Shown piece after piece: positions 1 to 25,958 of a stretch of DNA of 33,663 bases. The notes under the pieces were generated by a model. That model searched no databases. It worked only from the letters and a program-made list of their open reading frames with translations, and had not been told where the DNA came from. The stretch is from a virus. Both the position numbers and the translations under genes were made by a program. Within the stretch, counting starts at the first letter, position 1, and each line of letters starts with the position of its first letter. The DNA is taken from the IMG/VR virus record IMGVR_UViG_3300007754_000034, positions 1-33,663 of that record; one strand, written 5' to 3'.

Positions 1-696
1 TGTTGGACTCTTTTCCCCCGGTAGCAACTTCTCCCCAGCAGTGATATTAAACGCGACTCTTGGCTCTAGTGATGTAAAGTCGACTTCAAATAAAGACCCA
101 CCATCAAACCTGCTTCTTAAAACTTCACGATATTCTTTTTTTAGAGTTAAAATTTGCGGACCAGTTTTAATTGTAAGACGTCCTGTTTTAGTAGAAACTC
201 TGCTATATTGTGGCGGTTCAATTATGGCGTTTTTGCTAGCTTTCAAAAAGCTAGTCAAAGCAGCAGAGGTAGTCATTTCCAGTTCGTGCTTAGCTTTGTC
301 CATGTCGAGCTGACATGAGTATAGTTTATTTAAAATTCTGTTCGTTTCAATAAAAAAATTAGAATATTCATTATTCGCTATATTTTCTTCTGCGGCTGAA
401 AGGGCATTGATGAAGTTTTTAAACCTCTCCATAAATTTCCTTTTTGGCAATATATGAGCCCACGGAACACCCTTGTCGATCCCGCATGTTCGCATTGCTT
501 GAATAAATTCTGCTGGTATCAATTCTGGTAAAGTGATATCAAAAAGCTGGAACAGAGGCTCAGACGCATTGATTCTATCACCACAGCCATAAGTGAATGT
601 TGCCGGATATTCATCGGTGACCCAACATGCTTGGCCATCTTCAAGTAATAAGCTCTGTCCTGTTCCTATAGCATCTTTACAAACAAAAATAGACAT
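1..696 (-). CDS. Family A DNA polymerase-like protein, N-terminal 232 residues, cut by the window edge
   Basis: An uninterrupted frame runs from an ATG at 696 to the window edge, so the C-terminus is missing. Residues 164-180 read YSRVSTKTGRLTIKTGP, which resembles the TGRLS segment before the palm of Pol I-type enzymes. Residues 204-216 read EVDFTSLEPRVAF, which fits motif A (classically DYSQIELRV), with Asp206 as the likely metal-binding aspartate. About 30 residues separate the two segments, as in family A. Motifs B and C would lie outside the window. The first 150 residues show no 3'-5' exonuclease motif that I recognise. The start lies 42 bases after the hub gene on the same strand and has no clear Shine-Dalgarno sequence, so the start is uncertain. 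T4 itself uses a family B polymerase, which makes this placement unusual. The open frame is certain; the family call is by motif only. Confidence 0.65.
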   Translation of the reverse strand, partial: MSIFVCKDAIGTGQSLLLEDGQACWVTDEYPATFTYGCGDRINASEPLFQLFDITLPELIPAEFIQAMRTCGIDKGVPWAHILPKRKFMERFKNFINALSAAEENIANNEYSNFFIETNRILNKLYSCQLDMDKAKHELEMTTSAALTSFLKASKNAIIEPPQYSRVSTKTGRLTIKTGPQILTLKKEYREVLRSRFDGGSLFEVDFTSLEPRVAFNITAGEKLLPGEKSPT

Positions 697-738: not shown

Positions 739-3700
739 TCACGATTCTTCTGTCTCTGTCATCGCAGTAAGAGCTTTTTCGATAGATTGGAACGTGCTGA
801 TATATTTTCCAAATGCGTCTACCTGTGTGCACTTAAGTTTCGTCTCAAACTTCCCTTGCGATATTGTGTGGCCTATCCCGCTTACAACATACACATTGTC
901 GACAGACGTGCCCGTTCCGAAATCTACAAAAAGATGCTGACCATATTCTATCACAGGACAACCAAGCGTTGTCATTGAAAGTGATGTTGGTGCCGTCTGT
1001 AGGGGGAGTCCCGCGTCTCTAGCGCCCTGGGCTGTTGTGCCCCCGCCAAGGCCGCCGCGTTGCATATTGACTGTTGCCAACTTTGAATTATTCATCGAAG
1101 AAAGATCAGCGGAAATAACCGCAGAATTTTGTGAGCCATAAATGATAGATGGCATCGATTTAGACACAAACGCTTTTAGCGCTCTAAAACCACCCTTAAG
1201 ACGAAAATAATTTCTTGCGAACTCTTCCGGATCTACGCTTGTAATCGCTCCATTCCCATCAACTGTTGCGCCGACTAGCTCAGGCACTGCCTCTAGAAGA
1301 CCGGCGTCTAATGCTTGAGAAAGTAAATCGATAAACTCTGCCTCATGGTCTGCTTGTGCGGTTTCCTCTTCGGGGTCTGGCTCTCTAGCGGACTGAGATG
1401 CGGCAGAAGACAGCATTCCAAGAGAATTGCCCCGGGAGGCTAGCATCATTTTCCCCAGCGCGCTATATTTTGTCGCTTGGCTATCGAAAAGATGAATCCG
1501 TAAAATTGTCCCTTGCCTGCCCTGGCCGTCTTCAATACCCGTTCTCATAGGAACGGCTTCTATATGCATTGTGAGTCGTGGCATTTTAAATTCTTGGTCT
1601 GCAGACTCCCCGTACGCATCCTCTAAGCGCTTAACTTTTTCATTGTACAGCGCAGTAGCATCTTCAGAGATAGATTCTTTCATTTTCTGATTTCCCTCAT
1701 CGTCTGTTTCATATAGCTTTGTCAAGCCATACGCAGCAGAGGCTTGATTATGAACAAATTCCTTGTTTAAGAAGCTTATAAAACGACCTAATGGAATATT
1801 TGCAGTAGTTTCAGTCATTTCTTTAAATTTCTTTGAAAACTCTTCGAATTTTATTGGAAATTCAGAAATATTTGTACCAGTCAGATATGAAGACTTGTCA
1901 TTAAACGCATAAAAAACAAACTGTACCTCATCAAACCTATGTGTCGCAGCTAGAGGTTTTCCCACGAAATATAACAATAGAGCGCCAAGACTGATATACC
2001 GTTTATTTTGGCCATGAATATACACATACGTCGATGACCCGCCCATACCTGTGAATGTCCTTGGAAACGGATCGAGCCCTCGTCCCCGGAGCCTCTTTGC
2101 AATAGATAATTTATTCTGTACGGCACCGGCGATTGTTGCCTTCGCATCTGCTACTACACCTGATTTTCCGTCACTGCCGAATAATGCTGTTAAATTATCT
2201 ACCATTTCATCTGTCGCAGAGCCCTCTTCCGGATTTCTATTATTACCAAGAAATTTTGCTATAGCTTTTGACGTCTCTTCGTCAATCGTCAAAGCAGAAC
2301 TGGTGTCTGATGCTGCACCCAAGAATGTCGAGCCACCGACATCTTCTGATGCACCGCTAGAGCTTCCCAATATCTGGCGTCTTAACACAGATATCGCTTC
2401 GGTGAGGTCTCTTATTGTTTCCATAATATCGTCAACACCCTCGCCCTTGCTGATATTCGTGGTATTAACCGCGCTTGATCCCTTCATCGATAATTTGAGC
2501 TTAATCTTAACCTGACCAACTTCGTCAAAGGAAAATGAGCTATTAACAATACCATATTTCTCTGATATCTTCAATGCGTTTAAAAAAGACCCAAAGAAAT
2601 TACCAGATAATCCAGCATCTGCACTGGCTGCTGAATCGTCTGGATGAGACCACCCATAAGTTATCATGAGCTCTGTTCTTCCATACAAGTCCGGCTTTAC
2701 AAATTCAGCTATCTCAGACAATCTCGATCTGTCGTGCAGCGTTAACGATAGGTCAGCTGTCTTGTGAGACATCATCCCTTTAGACGGCGTAACAGTTATG
2801 TTAAAGTCATTAATCGACATGAACGGCCTTGTTCGATCAATGATCGGAGCTCCCCTGGTACCACCATAACTGGGTAATTTTTCTCCCGAATCGACTTCAT
2901 CGTCTGTCGTTGCCTCGGGGTCAACCGTAAAATCATCATACGTTTCATTCATGGGAACCAGCGTTTGAGGAGCAGTGAATAATTCCATACCTGCAGTAGA
3001 AATTCCTGCCGCTACTTCTTCCAGCAGCTCCTCATCTCCGGATGCCATCGCAGCATCCTGAGTTTCGACAAAATCGCTAATCGCGTCCATGCTTGTCGCG
3101 GACTGAAGGTACTCATTCACCGAGTCTTCCTCTAGCTTCGCTTGACCTATTAAAAATTGCATTAACGATATTGTTTGAATTCTACCATCATCGCTTACAG
3201 GCTTATTTGGCGTTATTAGTGTTATATCAAGATAAGGAATACATCGAGAAAATTCTAATGTTGGAATTGCGTTCATAAAAAGTGCCACAGCACCAGTGTC
3301 TCGTTGCGCTGGGGTTAGTCGGACGGGGAAAACGCACGTTGCAGTAAGATTAGGGTCGGATTTTTGGGGCGAAGCAAAAACTTGGTTTAATATACTCCCA
3401 CCAATCATCTCCTTAATAGATACGCTTGAGGCAGGCATACCACTTATACCCATAGTCTCAAATGAGTCGGGCTCTCCTACAAACTTGTATAAAGAAGCTG
3501 CTATGTCTTGGTCAGCAGCATCGTCACCAGACAACATATCACCCAGTTCTTTAACGATGTCGTATTGAATAACACCGCCCTCTGTTGTGTTCATTAATAG
3601 ACGGACCAGCTTCCGTAATGGATCATTGTCAGTAAATGAAGTAGTACCAAATTCAGCAAGATCTTCTTCTCCACCAAAAGCTAAAACAGAAATAAATTCT

Positions 3701-3774
3701 TCTTTCGATATTATAGAAAAATATCTCCCAAGAGCCTCCACAACAAAAGAAAGCTTGTCGTCAACTAACGCCAT
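739..3774 (-). CDS. Baseplate hub-like tail protein (gp27/gpD type)
   Basis: A 1,011-residue protein that probably forms the central hub of the baseplate, where the tail tube meets the puncturing device. Around residues 317-372 it has a beta-rich stretch (NDFNITVTPSKG, then LSLTLHDRSRL and ELMITYGWSHP) like the domains of phage hub proteins that describe layered beta barrels. Near the C-terminus, YVVSGIGHTISQGKFETKL resembles the last strand region of hub proteins (pattern Y-V-x-G-I-x-H-x-I-x-x-G-x-F-x-T). A helical, Ser/Gly-rich middle part (about residues 430-560) may be an insertion. T4 gp27 has 391 residues, so this is far longer. It starts 8 bases after the LysM gene, as P2- and Mu-type phages place a LysM protein near the hub. 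A gp5-like lysozyme domain was not recognised. The hub role is inferred from position and these two segments. Confidence 0.62.
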   Translation of the reverse strand: MALVDDKLSFVVEALGRYFSIISKEEFISVLAFGGEEDLAEFGTTSFTDNDPLRKLVRLLMNTTEGGVIQYDIVKELGDMLSGDDAADQDIAASLYKFVGEPDSFETMGISGMPASSVSIKEMIGGSILNQVFASPQKSDPNLTATCVFPVRLTPAQRDTGAVALFMNAIPTLEFSRCIPYLDITLITPNKPVSDDGRIQTISLMQFLIGQAKLEEDSVNEYLQSATSMDAISDFVETQDAAMASGDEELLEEVAAGISTAGMELFTAPQTLVPMNETYDDFTVDPEATTDDEVDSGEKLPSYGGTRGAPIIDRTRPFMSINDFNITVTPSKGMMSHKTADLSLTLHDRSRLSEIAEFVKPDLYGRTELMITYGWSHPDDSAASADAGLSGNFFGSFLNALKISEKYGIVNSSFSFDEVGQVKIKLKLSMKGSSAVNTTNISKGEGVDDIMETIRDLTEAISVLRRQILGSSSGASEDVGGSTFLGAASDTSSALTIDEETSKAIAKFLGNNRNPEEGSATDEMVDNLTALFGSDGKSGVVADAKATIAGAVQNKLSIAKRLRGRGLDPFPRTFTGMGGSSTYVYIHGQNKRYISLGALLLYFVGKPLAATHRFDEVQFVFYAFNDKSSYLTGTNISEFPIKFEEFSKKFKEMTETTANIPLGRFISFLNKEFVHNQASAAYGLTKLYETDDEGNQKMKESISEDATALYNEKVKRLEDAYGESADQEFKMPRLTMHIEAVPMRTGIEDGQGRQGTILRIHLFDSQATKYSALGKMMLASRGNSLGMLSSAASQSAREPDPEEETAQADHEAEFIDLLSQALDAGLLEAVPELVGATVDGNGAITSVDPEEFARNYFRLKGGFRALKAFVSKSMPSIIYGSQNSAVISADLSSMNNSKLATVNMQRGGLGGGTTAQGARDAGLPLQTAPTSLSMTTLGCPVIEYGQHLFVDFGTGTSVDNVYVVSGIGHTISQGKFETKLKCTQVDAFGKYISTFQSIEKALTAMTETEES

Positions 3775-3781
3775 CCACCTG

Positions 3782-4081
3782 TCATCCTAGCATGCTATTT
3801 ATCTGGGTTATGTCAAGCGGAATTGCCAAATACGTCCCGGGCGGCACCTGTAAATTCCACCCAATCCCACTAGCTGCAGCGATGACCCACCACAACGTTC
3901 CATCTCCGTAATATTTACCTGCTAAAACATCTAAACGCTCTGTTTCTGATGTTGTGTATGAGGTTACTTTTATCTTGTTACGCTGTACCGCTCGATAAAT
4001 GTGAAGCCCGGGTGAGAAAGTCCCATAAAATTTTCCTCTCTTTAACTTCGGAGCCCTTCTATATCTTTGCACAGTCATCAT
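3782..4081 (-). CDS. LysM-domain baseplate protein (gp53 / tail protein X type)
   Basis: A 99-residue protein. Its C-terminal half, from SETERLDVLAGKYYGDGTLW to VPPGTYLAIPLD, has the plan of a phage LysM module: a polar start, L-A-x-K-Y-Y-G-D, a Trp-Trp pair, and a closing P-P-G-x-x-L-x-I-P. In P2 (gpX) and T4 (gp53, 196 residues) such modules sit in the baseplate at the hub or wedge. Its position between a large baseplate gene and the hub gene fits. Two adjacent ATG codons (4081 and 4078) are possible starts. AAGGAG lies 4 bases before the first and 7 before the second, so the second may be the one used. The first overlaps the upstream stop as TAATG, which suggests translational coupling. 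Confidence 0.72.
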   Translation of the reverse strand: MMTVQRYRRAPKLKRGKFYGTFSPGLHIYRAVQRNKIKVTSYTTSETERLDVLAGKYYGDGTLWWVIAAASGIGWNLQVPPGTYLAIPLDITQINSMLG

Positions 4082-7000
4082 TATTCTCCTTCGTCAATTC
4101 TTCCACCGGCTCGACCAAATGCCTCACGGACAGCAGCTTGGAAACGATCTCGTGTAATTTTTCCAGCATCGACTCCTCCAGTCCGGCGAGCAGCTCCTGA
4201 GCCTATATCGGAAACAGGTACAGTACCAGCAGAGCCCCGATCGTATTGATCAGTTCCAAACATTCCAGCAATTTCACCAACAGGATAATTTATCGCCCTT
4301 GTAAAGCCGTTGTTGTCTATACCCGGCGGGATATCGTGTATCGGTGCAAATTGGATTGATATCTTCATTGCAGTAGGTGCCCGTCGGCCCATCGATTCCA
4401 TGTCCCACATCGCATCTCCATAATCCATATCGAATGATGTAATAAACCCAGCTAGCCCTCGTCCGCCGGCGGCTTCGAACGAACTTACAATAGCGTTATT
4501 TTTCGGATCAAAGAAATCGGAAATTTCCTGCATCTGTTCTTCCAGCGTCGTGGGTGTTGGGTTCGGGTCAGCTGGACCAATCGGAATTAGGTCTTCTTGC
4601 AAAACAAAATAAGAATGATAATGACCTTTTGCGCTCACTGGACCGTACGGATCACCAACATCATCCCGGTCTACATACTGGACCGCATATTCGATGTTAT
4701 GACTACCTTCCCCCATTGATAATTGCACATCGCTATCCCACTGATCGATGGTACCGTCGCCATCGACGTCCGTTGGGTCGTAATCACCACCACCAATCCA
4801 CGTACGCCCCATAATTTCTACCGTTCCATTTGCGGTTGTCCTACTAAGAAATGGAGTTTGCTCAACGTGAGTTGCTCCAACAGGGGTTGGGAGCCCGGGC
4901 TTTGCACCAGTATCCCATGTCGTGTATCCCCTTGAAGATGCTTTTAATATCGCTATATCTCCAACAGCGAAGCCATGAGCCTCGTCGCTGGGCGCGGAGG
5001 GTTCACGCGAGAATCTCTCATTAAATGCTGCTATCTCAGCATCATGAGCCTCTTGATCGGCCTGAGATACCCGCTCAATCGTTACAACATCAAATGGTGC
5101 ACCGGATGGTGCATCTTGGCGGCCGCCTTCCAAATCAGCAGATTCCGCAATACCGAATAACCGCGCCAAGTTAAACCTTGTGTAATTGCTTCTTATAACA
5201 TCCCCCACTCGTAATCGTATCATGGGGGAAGCAGTGGGAATTTGTGAAAAGGGCATAATAAAATGCTTTTCGCCAGCCTGCACCTGTTTTCCCATCGACC
5301 ACTGTGGATATAGTAATGTGATTAGCTTATTGACGCTCCACCACATCGAATCAAAGTCTTGGGGTGATGTAGACACAATCCAAAAATCAATAGAAATGCT
5401 ACGCTCAGTGCTCTGATAAATTTTAACCTTATCAATTCGACCGTAACCGCTGGAATCCTGATAGCTGACAGAGTACGAGTCCTTGATGTTTGACAGGAAC
5501 CCATGAAATCCCACAATTTCGTTTGTACGAAGATCATGAAAATAAAAGGGCATATACTCTATTTCAAATTGGTCCTCTAATTGCGACACCATTTCTTGTG
5601 GAAGCCTACTAACTTGAGACAACAGCCCCTTTCGCTGTTGCTTATCCCAATGTCTTGTTGTGTCTGCGTTCTGATCCGGAAAACTGTCCCCTGTATCTCC
5701 CTTAGTATCACCTACCAGAGCCATCAACGTATCAGGTGTCCCAAATCCCATATCAAAGACAGAGAACGCAGACTTTAATTTCGTTGGTAAAAGGAACCGA
5801 CCGGGAGCAGAGCGGTGGCGCCATGCCAGCTCTGATTTGTCTCTTGCTATTCTGCTTTTGGCCTGGCGTGTTTGTCCATTATCAGGCATCTGCTCCAGCG
5901 GGTTGCCACCTCGACCACCTAATGGAAAAGACCTTCTAGCTCTCATTACAGCGATATCGCCAATAACAGCAAGAACCATGATAAACCGAAATGAAGGAAA
6001 AGAAAGTAGACTTGTCACCAATTGATAAGCAACTAAAAGTGGGTTCACATCAAGAGAATCAAGAACGATATCATCTATAGCCATGACAAATCGAACGATA
6101 TCACGATTAAGAACCCTGAATAAGTTTGCGAAATTACCAGAAGTCAAAACTACATTCTCGGCAATCTGGTCTATATTCGAACCCAGGCTCTCCCACCATA
6201 AAATAATGCCAGGCCAACCTGCGGTCGCGACCCTGGGGTCAGGAGGATCGACAGCATTTCCTAGCCCCAAAAACTCTATGATACCCATAATAACACATAA
6301 GGTAAAATCGTGTTTAAGCGCAGGGATGCCAATCATCCGCATTATTCGTGTTCTTTGAGATTCAATTCGGTGAGAGCCCATCCGCATCGCTGATGGAATT
6401 GTGGGAACAGGGCTTCCGCCGCCAGTGTCTAGTAACAGCATCACTGCGGCGATTGCGGCCGCACCCAGAATTACTCCAGTCATGCCGCTAAGAGCGACAG
6501 CAAGCATAGCGGTGCGGTTTTTACCAGTGAAAGGCTCCAAATGTGAATTTAGAGCGCCAAAGCTCTTTGACGCTAGAAGAGGATTACCCATCTCATCGTA
6601 AAGTAACTCAGCATCCAGCGACGGTTTATCGGGCGCACCGTAAGCGTTGGCAGCCCTCAAAAAGTCCATCGTTATTTTTGTATGACCAGACTGTTCACCG
6701 GTCGGAAGTAGCGATGCAATGACTTGCAGAGCGCTATCTGGATCTGCGTCATCTTCTTTTGCGTGACCTGTTTGACGTAGCAACAACGACGCAGCGACCT
6801 TTCGGAGTTCGCTAAATAAAATTTCATCACCCTCGTTAGCGTGTACTCCGAACTCAGGTTGCTCTATCGCAGTTGCGTGAGTGAACTGTCCATCTTCGAT
6901 ATAGGGAGATTCACCATCTGGATTAAACCGATTATGGCTAGTGAGGATCGCGGATATTTTTTTCTGCTGGACCGGTGCGTACGTCGGTATCTCTATTCGC

Positions 7001-7479
7001 TTTTCACCGTATTGATTTCCAACACCCGGTTCAAATGGTGGTCTTGTCCCCTGGATATCAGACAGTACTGCATGTCCGTCAAGTTGGTTGTTTTTATCCA
7101 TGAACGATGACAAGGGTTGCGCGGTGGGACTTGCTTCATCAAACTTCCCAGAATTGCTCAGCATATCGAAAGATGTTCTTGCAGCAGATGCTTGCTCGCT
7201 ATTACCTCCGAGCGTATCGGTATATCCTGCCGTCGCAGCATCTTGACCACCCATCTCGATAGATGCAGGTGAGCCATCAGCGTTCAAATATGACGTCTCA
7301 ATGTACGTGGAATCCTCTACCGGATACGCATTACGAGTTCGTGCGTTCGTCGTCAGCGAGCTCATATAAGAGGCAAGAGTGTTCCTTGACGACTCCTTTA
7401 AGTCATCGCCCTCCTGAACAACACCGCTTCCTCCCGTACCAGCTGGAGCGAAGTCAACATCTGTAACGTCATCAGCCAC
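4081..7479 (-). CDS. Large baseplate structural protein with hydrophobic segments and an EF-hand-like loop
   Basis: A 1,132-residue protein read from a GTG that overlaps the preceding stop by 8 bases. I do not recognise one named family across its length. The N-terminal third is polar. Three hydrophobic stretches follow, at about residues 321-356, 390-410 and 477-514, which could be membrane segments or buried helices. The C-terminal half has beta-rich segments such as SISIDFWIVS and MKISIQFAPIHDIPPGIDN, of a kind found in myovirus baseplate proteins. At about residues 899-914, DVDGDGTIDQWD fits a 12-residue EF-hand loop (Asp at 1, 3, 5, 9 and 12, Gly at 6, Ile at 8), so calcium binding is likely. 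Placement between the tape measure and the LysM/hub genes supports a baseplate role. Its exact role (wedge, tube initiator or hub partner) is open. Confidence 0.6.
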   Translation of the reverse strand: MADDVTDVDFAPAGTGGSGVVQEGDDLKESSRNTLASYMSSLTTNARTRNAYPVEDSTYIETSYLNADGSPASIEMGGQDAATAGYTDTLGGNSEQASAARTSFDMLSNSGKFDEASPTAQPLSSFMDKNNQLDGHAVLSDIQGTRPPFEPGVGNQYGEKRIEIPTYAPVQQKKISAILTSHNRFNPDGESPYIEDGQFTHATAIEQPEFGVHANEGDEILFSELRKVAASLLLRQTGHAKEDDADPDSALQVIASLLPTGEQSGHTKITMDFLRAANAYGAPDKPSLDAELLYDEMGNPLLASKSFGALNSHLEPFTGKNRTAMLAVALSGMTGVILGAAAIAAVMLLLDTGGGSPVPTIPSAMRMGSHRIESQRTRIMRMIGIPALKHDFTLCVIMGIIEFLGLGNAVDPPDPRVATAGWPGIILWWESLGSNIDQIAENVVLTSGNFANLFRVLNRDIVRFVMAIDDIVLDSLDVNPLLVAYQLVTSLLSFPSFRFIMVLAVIGDIAVMRARRSFPLGGRGGNPLEQMPDNGQTRQAKSRIARDKSELAWRHRSAPGRFLLPTKLKSAFSVFDMGFGTPDTLMALVGDTKGDTGDSFPDQNADTTRHWDKQQRKGLLSQVSRLPQEMVSQLEDQFEIEYMPFYFHDLRTNEIVGFHGFLSNIKDSYSVSYQDSSGYGRIDKVKIYQSTERSISIDFWIVSTSPQDFDSMWWSVNKLITLLYPQWSMGKQVQAGEKHFIMPFSQIPTASPMIRLRVGDVIRSNYTRFNLARLFGIAESADLEGGRQDAPSGAPFDVVTIERVSQADQEAHDAEIAAFNERFSREPSAPSDEAHGFAVGDIAILKASSRGYTTWDTGAKPGLPTPVGATHVEQTPFLSRTTANGTVEIMGRTWIGGGDYDPTDVDGDGTIDQWDSDVQLSMGEGSHNIEYAVQYVDRDDVGDPYGPVSAKGHYHSYFVLQEDLIPIGPADPNPTPTTLEEQMQEISDFFDPKNNAIVSSFEAAGGRGLAGFITSFDMDYGDAMWDMESMGRRAPTAMKISIQFAPIHDIPPGIDNNGFTRAINYPVGEIAGMFGTDQYDRGSAGTVPVSDIGSGAARRTGGVDAGKITRDRFQAAVREAFGRAGGRIDEGE

Positions 7480-17300: not shown

Positions 17301-17466
17301 CGACGAAATCAGCAAAAGTTGCTACCGTAATAGGAACAAATGCTCGACCCTGATCAGCCGTACCTATAACACCAGCAGGTGTACCTGTAGGCGCAGCCTT
17401 TGTTGGGCCTGATAGGTCGATTTCCCTTGTGGAAACCCCAGGACTCTTAAATGTCAGTTCAGCCAT
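14383..17466 (-). CDS. Tail sheath protein, second paralogue (gp18 type)
   Basis: A 1,027-residue contractile sheath subunit. It begins MAELTFKSPGVSTREIDLSG and carries YPWFAPAGFTRGAL at about residue 858, then FGQKTL and SALDRVNVRRLLIEIRRQVR, the conserved C-terminal core that packs on the tube. It is clearly paralogous to the gene just upstream (same N-terminus and C-terminal core). T4 gp18 has 659 residues, so about 370 extra residues lie in the middle and probably form outward-facing domains. That part is rich in Ser, Gly, Ala and Asn. A TTG at 17472 would add two residues, but AGGAG lies 10 bases before the ATG at 17466 and only 4 before the TTG. It follows the first sheath gene by 33 bases. 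Confidence 0.9.
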   Translation of the reverse strand: MAELTFKSPGVSTREIDLSGPTKAAPTGTPAGVIGTADQGRAFVPITVATFADFVAEFGNTDGVKFGPMAMRQWLNYAKAGTYLRLLGAGDGKKRNSGGDVTNAGFTVGAQEAKANGLIGPNAYAGSTVAGAGNAGVLGRTHLLGVIMEESGSSAAFTDAGLGTVQPILRGVVMVPSGVVCALSASRSTVTNNTPLGSPSANNYAAGSSFGTGGADNAGSSNGAVNLAGGRQEFVMLLNGHTHTDAYPTIITASFDPNVPNYFANVLNTDPTKLQNAGHYLYAHWDVYPAIAYPTGSSLVSSTYAAATAGGTVSNEDIAFLMTSSISRANSTDANVPDFDSYKDRFRTAVSPYVISQKYGGKNNNLFRIHALDDGAIGNTRVKISIENIVKSTNVNQPFGAFDLLVRDYNDSDTEPVVIEKFSKLSLDPGSDRYVARQIGDYHLYYDFDKRVGSQKLILEGAYPNKSNYIRVETNTQLDKGKLPADCLPVGFRGPQHLVTSGSSIFGQPGDSATPLLNSSVASRLVQYPVPYRATVSKNVTPKKALAAELYWGVQFEVKDLVAEPNKNVKLDPSIKHYSTYFANYSQSGRKAMVGNNEGTADSSGTVLDADKFNNNLFSLENIQVCTTTDSTPVADSKQWAAAVYRRSGVAASSIPDIDGTARTLNASGGSRLLSVANDFGLSSARRFLKFSFIVQGGFDGVNIFNNEKAKFSNIAVTKEMADVTLQGGVTGPTVAAYRKAMDVLAERSDVDIQLLAVPGIRHKSVSDYVIQSVEERFDAMYIMDIENKDTYNEVVTGSAQLTSVTNTVNTFSGRNLDSSFAAAYFPDVIMTDVGTSTNVQVPPSVAVLGAFALNDSVAYPWFAPAGFTRGALKNVLESQVKLSRANLDALYDVDINPITAFPQTKGEVVVFGQKTLLAAQSALDRVNVRRLLIEIRRQVRAIGDTFLFEPNRESTLARFSAAVNPVLARIQAQQGLDRFKVQIDTTTTTQADVENNTVRGKIFLQPTRSVEFISLDFVVTNAGTEI

Positions 17467-17499
17467 TTCCAAAAATCTCCTGTTTCTCTCTTAACTATA

Positions 17500-20400
17500 T
17501 CACGCAAAATCTACACCGCTGTTTGTGATGATAAAATCTATCGCAATAAATTCGATTGCCCTTGTCGGCACAATAACGATTCGACCATTCAGCTTGTTGC
17601 TTTCAACATCTTCGGAAGTATTGTTGGTGTCATCCATAACAACCTTGAAAGACTCTATACCCTGCTGCGCCTGAATCGCAGCTAGCATCGGTGTAACTAG
17701 ATTTATGAATCGTGCTCTTGTAGCAGCGTTATTCGGCTCAAAAAGAATCTTATTAGCAACGCCAACAACCTGACGCTTGAGTTCAAGCAACATCCTACGG
17801 ACATTCACTCGATCCAACGCAGATTGAGTAAGCTGCATCGTCTTTTGGCCAAATATTACAAATCCACCATTCGGAAAGTTCGCAATCGGGTTAATTCGAT
17901 TATCGTATAAATCATCTCTATCGCTTGCGGTCAACCTAACATCGGTGTTCGTAACAATTCCTAACCCACCTCTATTAAATCCAGCAGGAGCAAACCAAGG
18001 ATATGCAACAGCATCGTTGTACGCTAACGCTGCAAGAGCAGCAATAGACGATGGAACGCGGACTGCCTCGCCGGTGTTTGAGTCGTTGATATAAACATCA
18101 GGGAAGTACGCGGCGCAATAATTGTTGTCAACCGCCCTTGACTCGAATTGCTCTGCTGTTTCCCTCACGTCGGGGGTGGAGTTGGAGGCGCTCTGAATCA
18201 ACGTCCTATCTTCATCTCCAAATAGGCGTGTGGAGCTCTCTGACCATGACGGAATGTCCATTAAGTAAATGGCCATTGAATAATCACGGACTCTATTGGC
18301 AGCCCAATCAGTGACAAATGTGTCTCTTATACCGGGTATTGTTAGGATGTTGCTACGTACCGTCATGGGATCTGTCATGATACGAGCAGCTTCTTTATAC
18401 GCAAATATATTATTGTTGAGACGACCGGATCCAGCGGGATTAGTACTAAGACCAATTGTAGAAGCGCTAAATTCATCAGCAGCCTTCCCTGTTTCACCAG
18501 ACGCGTCGGTCGACGTAGCTCGATCGTTCATTAATGACATGTCTTTATCAAGAATATTCAAGCCGTCGAATCCACCGTATAGCGGAGTCGTGAACTTAAG
18601 GTAACTCGTAAAACGATTAAAATGCACTGACGATGAATTAACAAGCGAAGCAAAAGTAACTCTATTTCCTGCACCGTCTGGATCATTTACCACATAGGTT
18701 TGCGAATCAGGTACACCATTTCGAATATATGATGCCTCAAGCATGTGCTCCTTTGCAGAACCAGTTACATATTGTAGTAATGTTGCAGAATTTGAACCTG
18801 CTGTGGCGATCGTGACTTTGGCAAGTGAAAACTTGTTAGCGTTAAATGTAGCGACTGCAGAGCCAGAAACTAAAGTATCAAGCTTTTGAATTCCCTGGAA
18901 CTTCGTATATGCTGAAACTGTCGGGTTTGGCAGAGAAGACACATTCTGGTCCAAAACAGCACTGGAAAGGTCGTTCTCCTTCGGGCATCTTTCAAACTTT
19001 GTACCCCAGTAGAGCCTCCCATCAACACGCTCGTCGTCACCAGGCAGCCCAGAGAACCACGGTGATGCGTTGACCGCACCACGGGTAATCTTAAAGCGCA
19101 TCGGAAGAGGAGGAACAATTGAGCCTGTCAGCGCCGATGTGACGCGACCCGCGAGACGCGGGTTGTCGAGTTGTCCGTACGTCACTCCATCAAACTCAAG
19201 AGCACCCTTGAGCGAGTCTGTCAGAGCGTCTGACGTCTTTATAGCAGGGATCCCAGCGAAACCGAACGGTAAAGCATCTGACGGTACTTGCTCCCTATAA
19301 ACAGCTTCTTCTATAACAACTCTAATATGTACAGATTGATTAGGATATTTTCCACTAACGACAATTCTTCTTTCATCGTCGTTTTCTGCATCGAAATTGT
19401 ACCGTGCCTTATAGTCACCAATTTTTCTACCGACAAAGCTTTCTGAGTTGGGATCTAAAGTGCATGCAGGATAGCTTTCCAGTACCTCGGGATCTAAATC
19501 GGTGTCGCCAAACCGACGGACCTGAACCTCAAACGTACCAAATGGGTAATTCTTATTTGAGCTAGCCCGCAAATTCGCAATAGAAACCTTGACTTTATTA
19601 TTCCCGTATGCTCCGTCCGACAGGGCTTCAAAATTGAATAATTTATATTCTGTGCTTCCGTATGGTTGTGATAGTATAGCGGGAGACGTAGGAGTTGTAT
19701 ATCGTGTGTCGTAACGACCGAACAACATTGTAAACTCGTTGCCCGCGCCCGAGCTTAATGTTCGGCCATAATTTCCAGAACCTGAAAGAATGGCAATAGA
19801 CCCCGCGGTTTCAAGAACAGGAGCGATCTCATTTTCTACAGCAAAATCCATGTAAAGAAGGTGCTGGTTCGTGTAAAACTTCGTAGGATCAGTGTTCAAA
19901 ACGTTCGCAATATACGCGTCACTTGCAGGATCAAGTGACGCAGTTACAACTTTAACACCGGGATAGCTTGGAAGCTGATTACAGAAAGCTGACCCAAGCG
20001 AAGAAGAAATCGCAAGCAAGAAATTACCACCAATATTGTTGGCTGCAGCGGTGGGAGCGCATCCATCGGTCATGTGGTTAGCCCAAGAGTCACCGACATC
20101 CATCACTTGTATTCTTGCGTTGACCGAACTAAAAATAACACCTCTCACTATATGAAGAGCGCTTGAATTACTGAAACTTGGGTTATCAGTAAATTCCGGC
20201 ATCGCTGCAGCTTCATTCGCGACTGCATCGTGCTTTGCAACTAAAAATTGCACCACGCCATTCTGAGCCTTATTCGTGGGCGGGGAAGCAGATATATTCC
20301 CCGACAAGACAAATCCTGCGTTTACCACTGTGCCGTAGGTTTGAGTGTTTGTTATGTTAGTTGTGGATTCATTCGCACCGGCACCTAAAACGCGCATGTA

Positions 20401-20643
20401 CGTTACTGCTGTTCTATTTTGTAGGAATGCTTGGACTGCATACGGTCCAAAGCGGTCGGGGTCAATGTCTCCAAAGCGATTCAAAAAATCTTGAAAACTG
20501 CCGACTGTTACGGGCACAAATGCCGGTCCCTTCTCAGCAGTACCTACGATTCCTGCTGGAACACCCGTTATTTCGGTCTTTCTCGTCGACGCGTCTATTT
20601 CGCGTTCAAAAAAGCCCGGGGATCTAAATGTCTGTTCTGCCAT
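17500..20643 (-). CDS. Tail sheath protein, first paralogue (gp18 type)
   Basis: A 1,047-residue contractile sheath subunit. The N-terminus (MAEQTFRSPGFFEREIDAST) and the C-terminal core (YPWFAPAGFNRGGL at about residue 878, then NPIANFPNGGFVIFGQKTM and SALDRVNVRRMLLELKRQV) fit the phage sheath family and match the second paralogue closely. The middle parts of the two differ much more. AGGAG lies about 10 bases before the ATG. It is the first gene after the gp15-like gene, from which it is separated by 65 bases with no terminator. Possible reasons for two copies are a mixed sheath, stage-specific use, or a recent duplication whose surface domains are diverging under selection; the sequence does not decide. 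Confidence 0.9.
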   Translation of the reverse strand: MAEQTFRSPGFFEREIDASTRKTEITGVPAGIVGTAEKGPAFVPVTVGSFQDFLNRFGDIDPDRFGPYAVQAFLQNRTAVTYMRVLGAGANESTTNITNTQTYGTVVNAGFVLSGNISASPPTNKAQNGVVQFLVAKHDAVANEAAAMPEFTDNPSFSNSSALHIVRGVIFSSVNARIQVMDVGDSWANHMTDGCAPTAAANNIGGNFLLAISSSLGSAFCNQLPSYPGVKVVTASLDPASDAYIANVLNTDPTKFYTNQHLLYMDFAVENEIAPVLETAGSIAILSGSGNYGRTLSSGAGNEFTMLFGRYDTRYTTPTSPAILSQPYGSTEYKLFNFEALSDGAYGNNKVKVSIANLRASSNKNYPFGTFEVQVRRFGDTDLDPEVLESYPACTLDPNSESFVGRKIGDYKARYNFDAENDDERRIVVSGKYPNQSVHIRVVIEEAVYREQVPSDALPFGFAGIPAIKTSDALTDSLKGALEFDGVTYGQLDNPRLAGRVTSALTGSIVPPLPMRFKITRGAVNASPWFSGLPGDDERVDGRLYWGTKFERCPKENDLSSAVLDQNVSSLPNPTVSAYTKFQGIQKLDTLVSGSAVATFNANKFSLAKVTIATAGSNSATLLQYVTGSAKEHMLEASYIRNGVPDSQTYVVNDPDGAGNRVTFASLVNSSSVHFNRFTSYLKFTTPLYGGFDGLNILDKDMSLMNDRATSTDASGETGKAADEFSASTIGLSTNPAGSGRLNNNIFAYKEAARIMTDPMTVRSNILTIPGIRDTFVTDWAANRVRDYSMAIYLMDIPSWSESSTRLFGDEDRTLIQSASNSTPDVRETAEQFESRAVDNNYCAAYFPDVYINDSNTGEAVRVPSSIAALAALAYNDAVAYPWFAPAGFNRGGLGIVTNTDVRLTASDRDDLYDNRINPIANFPNGGFVIFGQKTMQLTQSALDRVNVRRMLLELKRQVVGVANKILFEPNNAATRARFINLVTPMLAAIQAQQGIESFKVVMDDTNNTSEDVESNKLNGRIVIVPTRAIEFIAIDFIITNSGVDFA

Positions 20644-24050: not shown

Positions 24051-25958
24051 TTAGATTACGTCCATGTTCTGGACAGTCACTGTGCCGTAGAAGTCGTTAC
24101 GGACCATCTTCTTACCATAGCGAGTCATCACGCCCTTGCGGGGGGTGAAATCCTCAGGAGCGAAGATAGTGGGAGTAACGATTAGCGGTACATACGGAGC
24201 GTACACATACCCAGTCTCCAGATAGCTACCACCCTTGTACCCAACAAGAATCTTGTTGCGTGGGAAGTAAGGATCCTTATAGACTGTGAAGCGATTGCTA
24301 AGCGTACCAACCTTCTCACAACCCAACGTCATTCCGCCCGCGACCTGGCCATCACCATCAAGGGTGTAAGCAGGACGATAGAGGACAGAAGCCTCGAGGA
24401 TAGTAGCAACATCAGGACTTACGACCATGAAGTTTGCAGAGCCTCTAAGGGTCTTACGATGGATTTCGTTCGCCACATCGATAACTGTCTCTACAAGAGT
24501 CTCGTACCACTCGCGGACTGTACCAGTAAAGGATGCATGTCCTGCTTGGGTTGAACGATTCTCGACTAGAGCACCAGTCTTCTTGTTGACGAAACGACCG
24601 GGCTGACGTGACCAGTAATAAGCTGTATCGGCTTCTACCAAGAGATCGTTAAGGATCTCACGGTCAATCTCTAGAGCAATCTGCTCGGAGAGGATCTGAG
24701 TAAGCTCAACCTCAGCGTCCAGGCTGTGGTAGGCATTCAGGTCCTGAGCAAGCTCGGGAGACCAACGGGCACGCAACTTACGGGTCTGAGCGACGACTGA
24801 GATACTCTCAATCTTGATATCGATCTCAGGAATCTGAGGCTTCGGTGATGTACCGAAATCAGACTCGAACACCGGCACGACAAGAGTATCGCCAACACCA
24901 GATGTAACATCGAGACTATTGCCCTTCGGATACGAAACGCAGAAGGCCTTCAGGTCTGTGCTACCCAACGCGGTACCAGAAAGTACCATCAACAACGCTG
25001 CACCAGAGGTGGATCGCGTGGCCATTGGAGCTGCTGTGATTGCACCACCCGCAGAGGATGACGTAATCAGCTGGTTGAGACGACGGATGTTATACACACC
25101 CGCTCCGCCCTGGTATATGTCGCCAGGAACAGCAAGGTCCGTTGAGGTACTGTTGAAACCAGCGGTACCGGTTAGTAACAATGCACATTCCTTAACCGCG
25201 GTAGGATCGAAGTCGGAACCCAGTGCTCCGAGATTGACAGCCAAGAAGCGGAACTTGCCACTCTCGCTATCAACCTTAGTTGTGACCGTAGGATCAAACT
25301 GTGCGAAACGACCGTCTGCACCAGCAGATGCAATCCCGCCGGCAGACGTTGAACGACTCTGTGTAGCAGAACTACCAAGTACGAAGCATGCGTTCGCGAC
25401 GGTTGTGATGTTACTACGAGCGTGGACTCTAGAATAACCAGAGCCAGCAAGGTCATACTGCCCACCGGTACCAAGAGATCCAGACTGGATACCCTTACCT
25501 ACGGGGTTATTATATATGGACTGACCTTTCGTGTAGATCGACTTGGACGATGTACCGATACCTGTGGTAGCCGTACCACCAATGTTGGTGCCATATGTGT
25601 AATCCAGATAGAAGAGCAGACCAGAAGGTAAGCTCATTGGCTGAATTGATACTAGCTCATTCGCAACCAGCCCACCGAAAACTCGGCGTACGATTGGGAA
25701 TGCGATGTTAGTGAAACCTCGGATGTCACCAGATGAAGCGGAGGGGCTCATCCCACCACCACCGAGAGTGTTTTGCTCCCGGAGTATCTGACCTGCCTGG
25801 TTCTCGAGTAGCTGTGCCATGTTTTCACGATGGACGCCGTCGAGACCTCGCAGGAGACCGGTCCGAGTCCACTTTTCTGTCAAACGACGTCCATGGCTGC
25901 CCATGTGACGCTGACGGATACCTTCCGTCAGTTGATCGAGTGTGAACTTCTTAGACAT
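24051..25958 (-). CDS. 23: Major capsid protein (gp23 type)
   Basis: A 635-residue precursor of the head shell. The N-terminus (MSKKFTLDQL, then MAQLLENQAGQILREQNT) is the helical region removed by the prohead protease in this family; E52 (LLE) and E61 (LRE) are candidate cleavage points, near residue 65 as in T4 gp23. After it come AFPIVRRVFGGLVANELVSI and QPMSLPSGLLFYLDYTYGT, strongly typical of gp23. Later IESISVVAQTRKLRARWSPE and AEVELTQILSEQIALEIDRE belong to the shell core. T4 gp23 has 521 residues; the extra length lies mainly in a Ser/Gly/Thr-rich middle region (about 150-340), probably a surface insertion. AAAGGAG lies 8 bases before the ATG. By eye the codons favour C-ending choices more than the neighbours, which fits high expression. 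No separate vertex protein (gp24) is seen. Confidence 0.97.
   Translation of the reverse strand: MSKKFTLDQLTEGIRQRHMGSHGRRLTEKWTRTGLLRGLDGVHRENMAQLLENQAGQILREQNTLGGGGMSPSASSGDIRGFTNIAFPIVRRVFGGLVANELVSIQPMSLPSGLLFYLDYTYGTNIGGTATTGIGTSSKSIYTKGQSIYNNPVGKGIQSGSLGTGGQYDLAGSGYSRVHARSNITTVANACFVLGSSATQSRSTSAGGIASAGADGRFAQFDPTVTTKVDSESGKFRFLAVNLGALGSDFDPTAVKECALLLTGTAGFNSTSTDLAVPGDIYQGGAGVYNIRRLNQLITSSSAGGAITAAPMATRSTSGAALLMVLSGTALGSTDLKAFCVSYPKGNSLDVTSGVGDTLVVPVFESDFGTSPKPQIPEIDIKIESISVVAQTRKLRARWSPELAQDLNAYHSLDAEVELTQILSEQIALEIDREILNDLLVEADTAYYWSRQPGRFVNKKTGALVENRSTQAGHASFTGTVREWYETLVETVIDVANEIHRKTLRGSANFMVVSPDVATILEASVLYRPAYTLDGDGQVAGGMTLGCEKVGTLSNRFTVYKDPYFPRNKILVGYKGGSYLETGYVYAPYVPLIVTPTIFAPEDFTPRKGVMTRYGKKMVRNDFYGTVTVQNMDVI

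Follow-up and report, generated by a model that had tools for sequence, protein, structure and literature searches.

The window analysed here is the whole of IMG/VR record IMGVR_UViG_3300007754_000034 (33,663 bases), and the open frame at its first base, cut there by the contig end, is the beginning of a gene for a short family A DNA polymerase without a 3'-5' exonuclease domain, referred to below as the mini-polymerase. The gene opens the replication module of a T4-type phage. Its 400-residue product is probably an accessory enzyme of the Pol I kind that fills gaps or serves recombination, with its 5'-nuclease encoded by a separate gene and genome copying left to another polymerase.

The frame runs on the reverse strand from 696 to 1 and in translation gives the first 232 codons of the polymerase, with TKTGRLTIKTGP at residues 169-180 and EVDFTSLEPRVAF at residues 204-216. 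A TTG at 732 is a possible start, and the frames of two related loci (L007 and L008) begin with ATG at the equivalent place. The continuation of the window DNA is present in four other contigs, the largest of which comprises 254,743 bases and matches the window at 99.99-100% identity. The frame passes the window edge with no early stop and, in the identical DNA of locus L002, runs for 168 further codons to complete a protein of 400 aa. The 232-aa piece by itself gives a weak signal (PF00476 at 12.8 bits, below the cut-off of 34.3; phrog_17 at E 1.5e-4); the complete protein reaches 50.5 bits with PF00476 (DNA_pol_A; curated cut-off 34.3) and 5.4e-20 with phrog_17, which confirms the polymerase-like frame that an earlier, sequence-only reading of this DNA had proposed. 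Its assignment to family A, with no 3'-5' exonuclease domain, is supported as well.

Motif B, looked for in the continuation, is present (RDTAKLAVLCSLYG), and the R-x3-K-x7-Y-G pattern of the O helix is found as R248, K252, Y260 and G261. Motif C is likewise there (IIHDALIMDV), although it reads HDA and not the HDE that had been anticipated. In the window clade, sampled as 19 loci with 15 distinct polymerase proteins, the equivalents of R668, D705, E710, R754, K758, Y766, Q849, H881 and D882 (E. coli numbering) are invariant in all 13 aligned rows, and the two catalytic Asp residues, D705 of motif A (D206 in the mini-polymerase) and D882 of motif C (D362), are invariant at all 19 loci also. 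Position 762 is Leu at 14 loci, Ile at 4 and Met at 1, and the position of E883 is occupied by Ala at 18 loci and Ser at one, giving HDA or HDS, not HDE. Glu stands at 883 in 3 of the 9 full-length phage PolAs compared; judging from these sequences, E883 is generally not conserved among phage PolAs, and an exact HDE in motif C is common in family A without defining it. Two residues that the sequence-only reading had singled out as unusual, the Phe that follows the Asp of motif A and the Pro that follows its Glu, are not special, since both are seen in other members of the window clade and the full-length PolA of Flavobacterium phage vB_FspM_immuto_2-6A (immuto) reads SLEPH.

A profile built from 13 relatives matches Pol nu (1e-16, the best match of solved structure), Taq and Klenow (2e-12), and also Bst. 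The AlphaFold2 model of the 400-aa protein, computed from the 13-sequence alignment (pLDDT 89.9, pTM 0.88), aligns with Bst Pol I (4dsj_A) over 384 of 400 residues (VIA Z 23.0, rmsd 4.9), and Foldseek matches it to Taq at 6e-13. The model thus predicts the Pol I polymerase-domain fold of palm, fingers and thumb, and this domain alone. The predicted fold and the catalytic residues are shared with the Pol I large fragments of Bst, Taq and Klenow, from which the mini-polymerase differs in the Leu at 762 and the Ala in place of E883. These large fragments also retain the exonuclease domain, which in Bst and Taq is vestigial, whereas the mini-polymerase would have at most some 60 residues at that position.

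PF00476 is the sole profile above its cut-off in the 400-aa chain, and no 3'-5' exonuclease domain is found in it. About 160 residues precede the R668 motif, mostly helical in the AlphaFold2 model, and the first 60 or so may be a remnant of an exonuclease domain, since the alignment of the model with the Pol I large fragments begins in their vestigial or real exonuclease domain. Nor is a 5'-3' exonuclease fused to the mini-polymerase, the PF02739 match being a gene of its own (L002:15065-16015). In three pairwise comparisons among L002, L007 and L008, in which dS is saturated, residues 161-400 show 87-90% identity and dN/dS of 0.04-0.055, against 44-53% identity and dN/dS of 0.22-0.26 for residues 1-160. 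By these ratios the catalytic part is under strong purifying selection; the N-terminal part diverges several times faster.

The genes that surround the mini-polymerase are collected in Table 1. The claim that the polymerase lies directly behind the tail genes stands insofar as it adjoins the 1011-aa gene on the same strand, whose product has no confident Pfam or PHROG name; the mini-polymerase gene, however, is part of the replication module, which comes after the tail genes, and not of the tail module itself. Among window-clade loci, all 14 that extend at least 500 bases upstream have a homologue of the 1011-aa gene there, and all 11 that extend at least 5 kb upstream have one of the 99-aa wedge-like gene. 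In L002 the mini-polymerase is followed by a 160-aa frame, an RNase_T exonuclease, a 97-aa frame, a gp32-type SSB, UvsX/RecA, the 5'-3' exonuclease, DnaB and ribonucleotide reductase. Across window-clade loci with room on that side, the module includes SSB (16/16), RecA (13/13), the 5'-3' exonuclease (FEN; 11/11) and DnaB (5/5). The same order recurs in a second clade, named here for immuto and sampled as the best 80 of 312 relatives (66 distinct polymerase proteins): within this sample the upstream gene is found at 73 of 74 loci with room, the wedge-like homologue at 52 of 52 with at least 5 kb upstream, SSB at 34 of 34, RecA at 30 of 30 and FEN at 26 of 26, no locus being long enough for a count of DnaB. 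Two tandem tail sheath genes of the window (14383-17472 and 17500-20643, reverse strand) are very long, at 1029 and 1047 aa, and both match phrog_23 and phrog_10581; sheath proteins usually have about half to two thirds of this length. Elsewhere in the related contigs, a 410-aa protein (L037:5860-7092, reverse strand, equal to G001:226860-228092) has a weak match to the PhuZ tubulin (phrog_4733, E 0.005), and a GroEL-like gene lies at G001:218576-220159.

Table 1. The mini-polymerase and neighbouring genes in the window (coordinates are window positions; residues follow full-protein numbering)
Feature	Position	Strand	Remark
Mini family A DNA polymerase, first 232 of 400 codons	1..696	-	3' end cut by contig end
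Mini-polymerase residues within the window			R173, D206 (motif A), E211
Mini-polymerase residues beyond the window			R248, K252, L256, Y260 (motif B), Q333, H361, D362, A363 (motif C)
1011-aa baseplate-region protein	739..3774	-	Gene immediately upstream of the polymerase
99-aa baseplate wedge subunit-like protein	3782..4081	-	phrog_7145 1.8e-7
1132-aa tail/baseplate-region protein	4081..7479	-	Homologue at the same place in relatives
T4-type baseplate hub protein	12883..13737	-	PF12322 4e-13
Tail tube protein	13853..14341	-	phrog_4542 1.6e-30
T4-type major head protein	24051..25958	-	phrog_138 1.4e-72; the nearest named phages were identified with it

The mini-polymerase coexists with other polymerases. 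The T4-like family B polymerase that the sequence-only reading had suggested seeking elsewhere in the genome is absent from the 254,743-base contig, and no family B gene (PF00136) is seen in G001-G004, G007, G008, G010 or G011, contigs that are possibly incomplete. The 254,743-base contig instead carries a 1266-aa Pol III alpha of the DnaE type, encoded on the same strand some 17 kb downstream of the mini-polymerase, with PHP, NTPase, finger and HHH domains and a PDxDxD motif. Because this contig has a Pol III alpha, and the mini-polymerase is thus not its sole polymerase, the mini-polymerase is probably not the main replicase. A DnaE-type gene is present in 7 of 11 window-clade records, some 17-38 kb downstream of the mini-polymerase, and the four records without one (G002, G005, G006 and G009) extend no more than about 8 kb beyond it on that side. 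In the immuto clade DnaE is found in none of 8 records, 7 of which hold a second, full-length PolA of 777-796 aa; that of immuto itself (777 aa) has an exonuclease-like N-terminal part, and in the 114-kb record G013 the mini-polymerase is the only polymerase seen. Microcystis phage Mel-JY01 pairs a mini-polymerase homologue with a polymerase of family B. In LR756508 (484 kb) a mini-polymerase of the immuto type sits at the same place as in its relatives; this record further contains two open frames of 1022 and 625 aa with pieces of family B and a 575-aa frame that matches Pol III alpha (LR756508.1 260623-266900 and 47415-48068), and so three polymerase families in one record. LR756511 (595 kb) combines DnaE with a 428-aa family A gene, which lies on a long branch in the tree and, over the 40 kb read, is not beside homologues of SSB or of the baseplate genes. 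RM378, a relative by its capsid, has a polymerase gene of family B by sequence and profile, and neither PF00476 nor the HMMs of the two clades detect a mini-polymerase in it, a point that counts against the main reading; it was therefore rejected as a split-polymerase model and as the closest known case. The beta clamp profile PF00712 has no match in any of 4 records, the primase zinc-ribbon profile matches solely under its cut-off in 6 of 9, and a search of the genome contigs that returned 201 stretches fitting a pattern, none of them confirmed, gave no clue to the host.

The closest annotated counterpart is immuto gene 1 (QQO91680, 'DNA polymerase family A', 441 aa), which like the window gene encodes a family A enzyme with the polymerase domain. 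It occupies the same place as in the window clade, after the genes for sheath, tube, hub and tape measure and before those for SSB, RecA, 5'-3' exonuclease, DnaB and ribonucleotide reductase, and it too is accompanied by a second polymerase, there the 777-aa PolA with exonuclease and polymerase parts as against DnaE in the window clade. Its N-terminal region is longer than in the window type, and its clade differs at the active site: among the best 80 of 312 relatives, E710H and R754Y are found in 80 of 80 and H881Y in 78 of 80 (2 gaps), and D705, K758, F762, Y766 and D882 (78 of 80, 2 gaps) are retained. The three changes occur jointly in L069-L148, Mel-JY01 and LR756508, with both catalytic Asp residues kept. 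E710 is the steric gate in Klenow. From these substitutions, the immuto type may differ in activity from the window type.

The Mel-JY01 homologue (WWT39333, 'hypothetical protein', 408 aa) has the same place and neighbours as the window mini-polymerase and is matched by the HMMs of both the window clade (49 bits) and the immuto clade (109 bits), but it has the active-site changes of the immuto type, and the other polymerase of this phage is of family B. Between its mini-polymerase and SSB genes lies a protein with an S-adenosylmethionine lyase domain (L174:20406-21692; PF23780 4e-10). The window-clade HMM scores seven full-length PolAs of the immuto clade at 33-42 bits, nearly as high as the Mel-JY01 mini-polymerase, and misses the immuto mini-polymerases, and hhalign of A3 against A4 gives a probability of 64 (E 6.5e-5). 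Tree support is high for each group (99/99 for the window clade; 100/100 for immuto with Mel-JY01 and LR756508) and not for their union; a single clade of all mini-polymerases, in a test that left out the 428-aa gene of LR756511, was not rejected (p-AU 0.462). The two types may be orthologues, a view that rests on position and on Mel-JY01 matching both HMMs; alternatively, a different PolA may have taken over the same site.

An accessory role is the simplest reading, since what varies among these phages is the other polymerase, and the short family A enzyme keeps its place as first gene of the SSB-RecA-FEN-DnaB module. The proposed substrates are lagging-strand gaps and those of recombination intermediates. 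At these the 5'-3' exonuclease, six genes downstream, would take off the primer or flap, the gp32-type SSB would cover the gap, and the mini-polymerase would fill it by ordinary two-metal catalysis with D206 and D362. UvsX/RecA and DnaB in the module suggest recombination-dependent synthesis as a second use, and copying of the genome would fall to the other polymerase, DnaE in the window clade. We infer catalysis in vitro, the use of these partners and the division of labour.

The RNase_T exonuclease (phrog_192, 'DNA polymerase exonuclease subunit', 3.9e-34) stands in the same gene run as the mini-polymerase in L002-L008, a module that also holds SSB and DnaB. Such an arrangement would suit a split replicase, in which the main replicative role would fall to the mini-polymerase, detached proofreading to the RNase_T exonuclease two genes further on, and repair or the lagging strand to DnaE. 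This is unlikely: the exonuclease is in the module at 7 of 18 window-clade loci, those of the closest contigs, but is missing from it at the other 11 and at 53 of 53 immuto-clade loci (among the best 80 of 312 relatives), lying elsewhere in G007 and G008, and relatives with enough sequence retain another polymerase. It occurs in 5 of 7 window-clade contigs with DnaE (the two without are fragments of 76 and 34 kb) and in LR756508, falls under the cut-off in LR756511 and is in none of 7 immuto-clade records. Since it occurs together with DnaE, proofreading for that enzyme is a likelier role for it than partnership with the mini-polymerase. As an obligatory partner it was rejected, being outside the module in most relatives and going with DnaE.

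Equally improbable is a translesion or recombination-repair polymerase with a role like that of Pol nu or theta, which would extend D-loops made by UvsX or pass lesions. Such a role would fit the missing exonuclease domain, the RecA/UvsX gene of the module and human Pol nu as the best solved profile match; that match, however, is within the general family A range, with Bst, Taq and Klenow close behind, and Leu at 762, the residue at 14 of the 19 loci here, has been tied to slower, more accurate synthesis (PMC9069017). That the protein is a degenerate, inactive polymerase retained for a structural or regulatory purpose is very doubtful, for the lost motif C Glu, the fast-evolving N-terminal 160 residues and the changed E710, R754 and H881 positions of the immuto clade would agree with it, but all metal- and dNTP-binding residues checked are invariant in the window clade, residues 161-400 are under strong purifying selection, and most full-length phage PolAs compared have no Glu at 883 either.

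The accessory reading can be extended, tentatively and with a little less than even confidence, to T4-type phages: a conserved cassette of mini-PolA, SSB, UvsX, FEN, DnaB and ribonucleotide reductase would keep the helper polymerase in place, the replicase being exchanged among DnaE, a PolA with exonuclease and polymerase parts, and PolB, and in the branch of immuto, Mel-JY01 and LR756508 substrate choice may have shifted, for example toward ribonucleotides or RNA ends, through the combined loss of the E710 steric gate, R754 and H881. Parts of this picture are already known. Immuto gene 1 is annotated as a family A polymerase, and second polymerases beside a main one are described in the available portion of a study of jumbo-phage replication (Iyer et al. 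2021; PMC7824862), where group 2.2 has PolB with a split minimal Pol III alpha and group 3.2 uses Pol III alpha; a family A mini-polymerase is not mentioned in that portion. Among the open-access listings and abstracts searched, no paper describes this gene, or a mini-polymerase of this kind as a conserved part across replicase types.

If this reading is correct, the replicase would be separated from the gap-filling polymerase within one phage lineage, the former exchangeable and the latter staying as its helper, and a Pol I-type enzyme of about 400 aa without an exonuclease domain would be on offer. The division of labour would be directly testable in the cultured immuto phages, in which the two polymerase genes could be deleted singly. 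An annotation of 'DNA polymerase family A' in such phages would then not necessarily denote the replicase.
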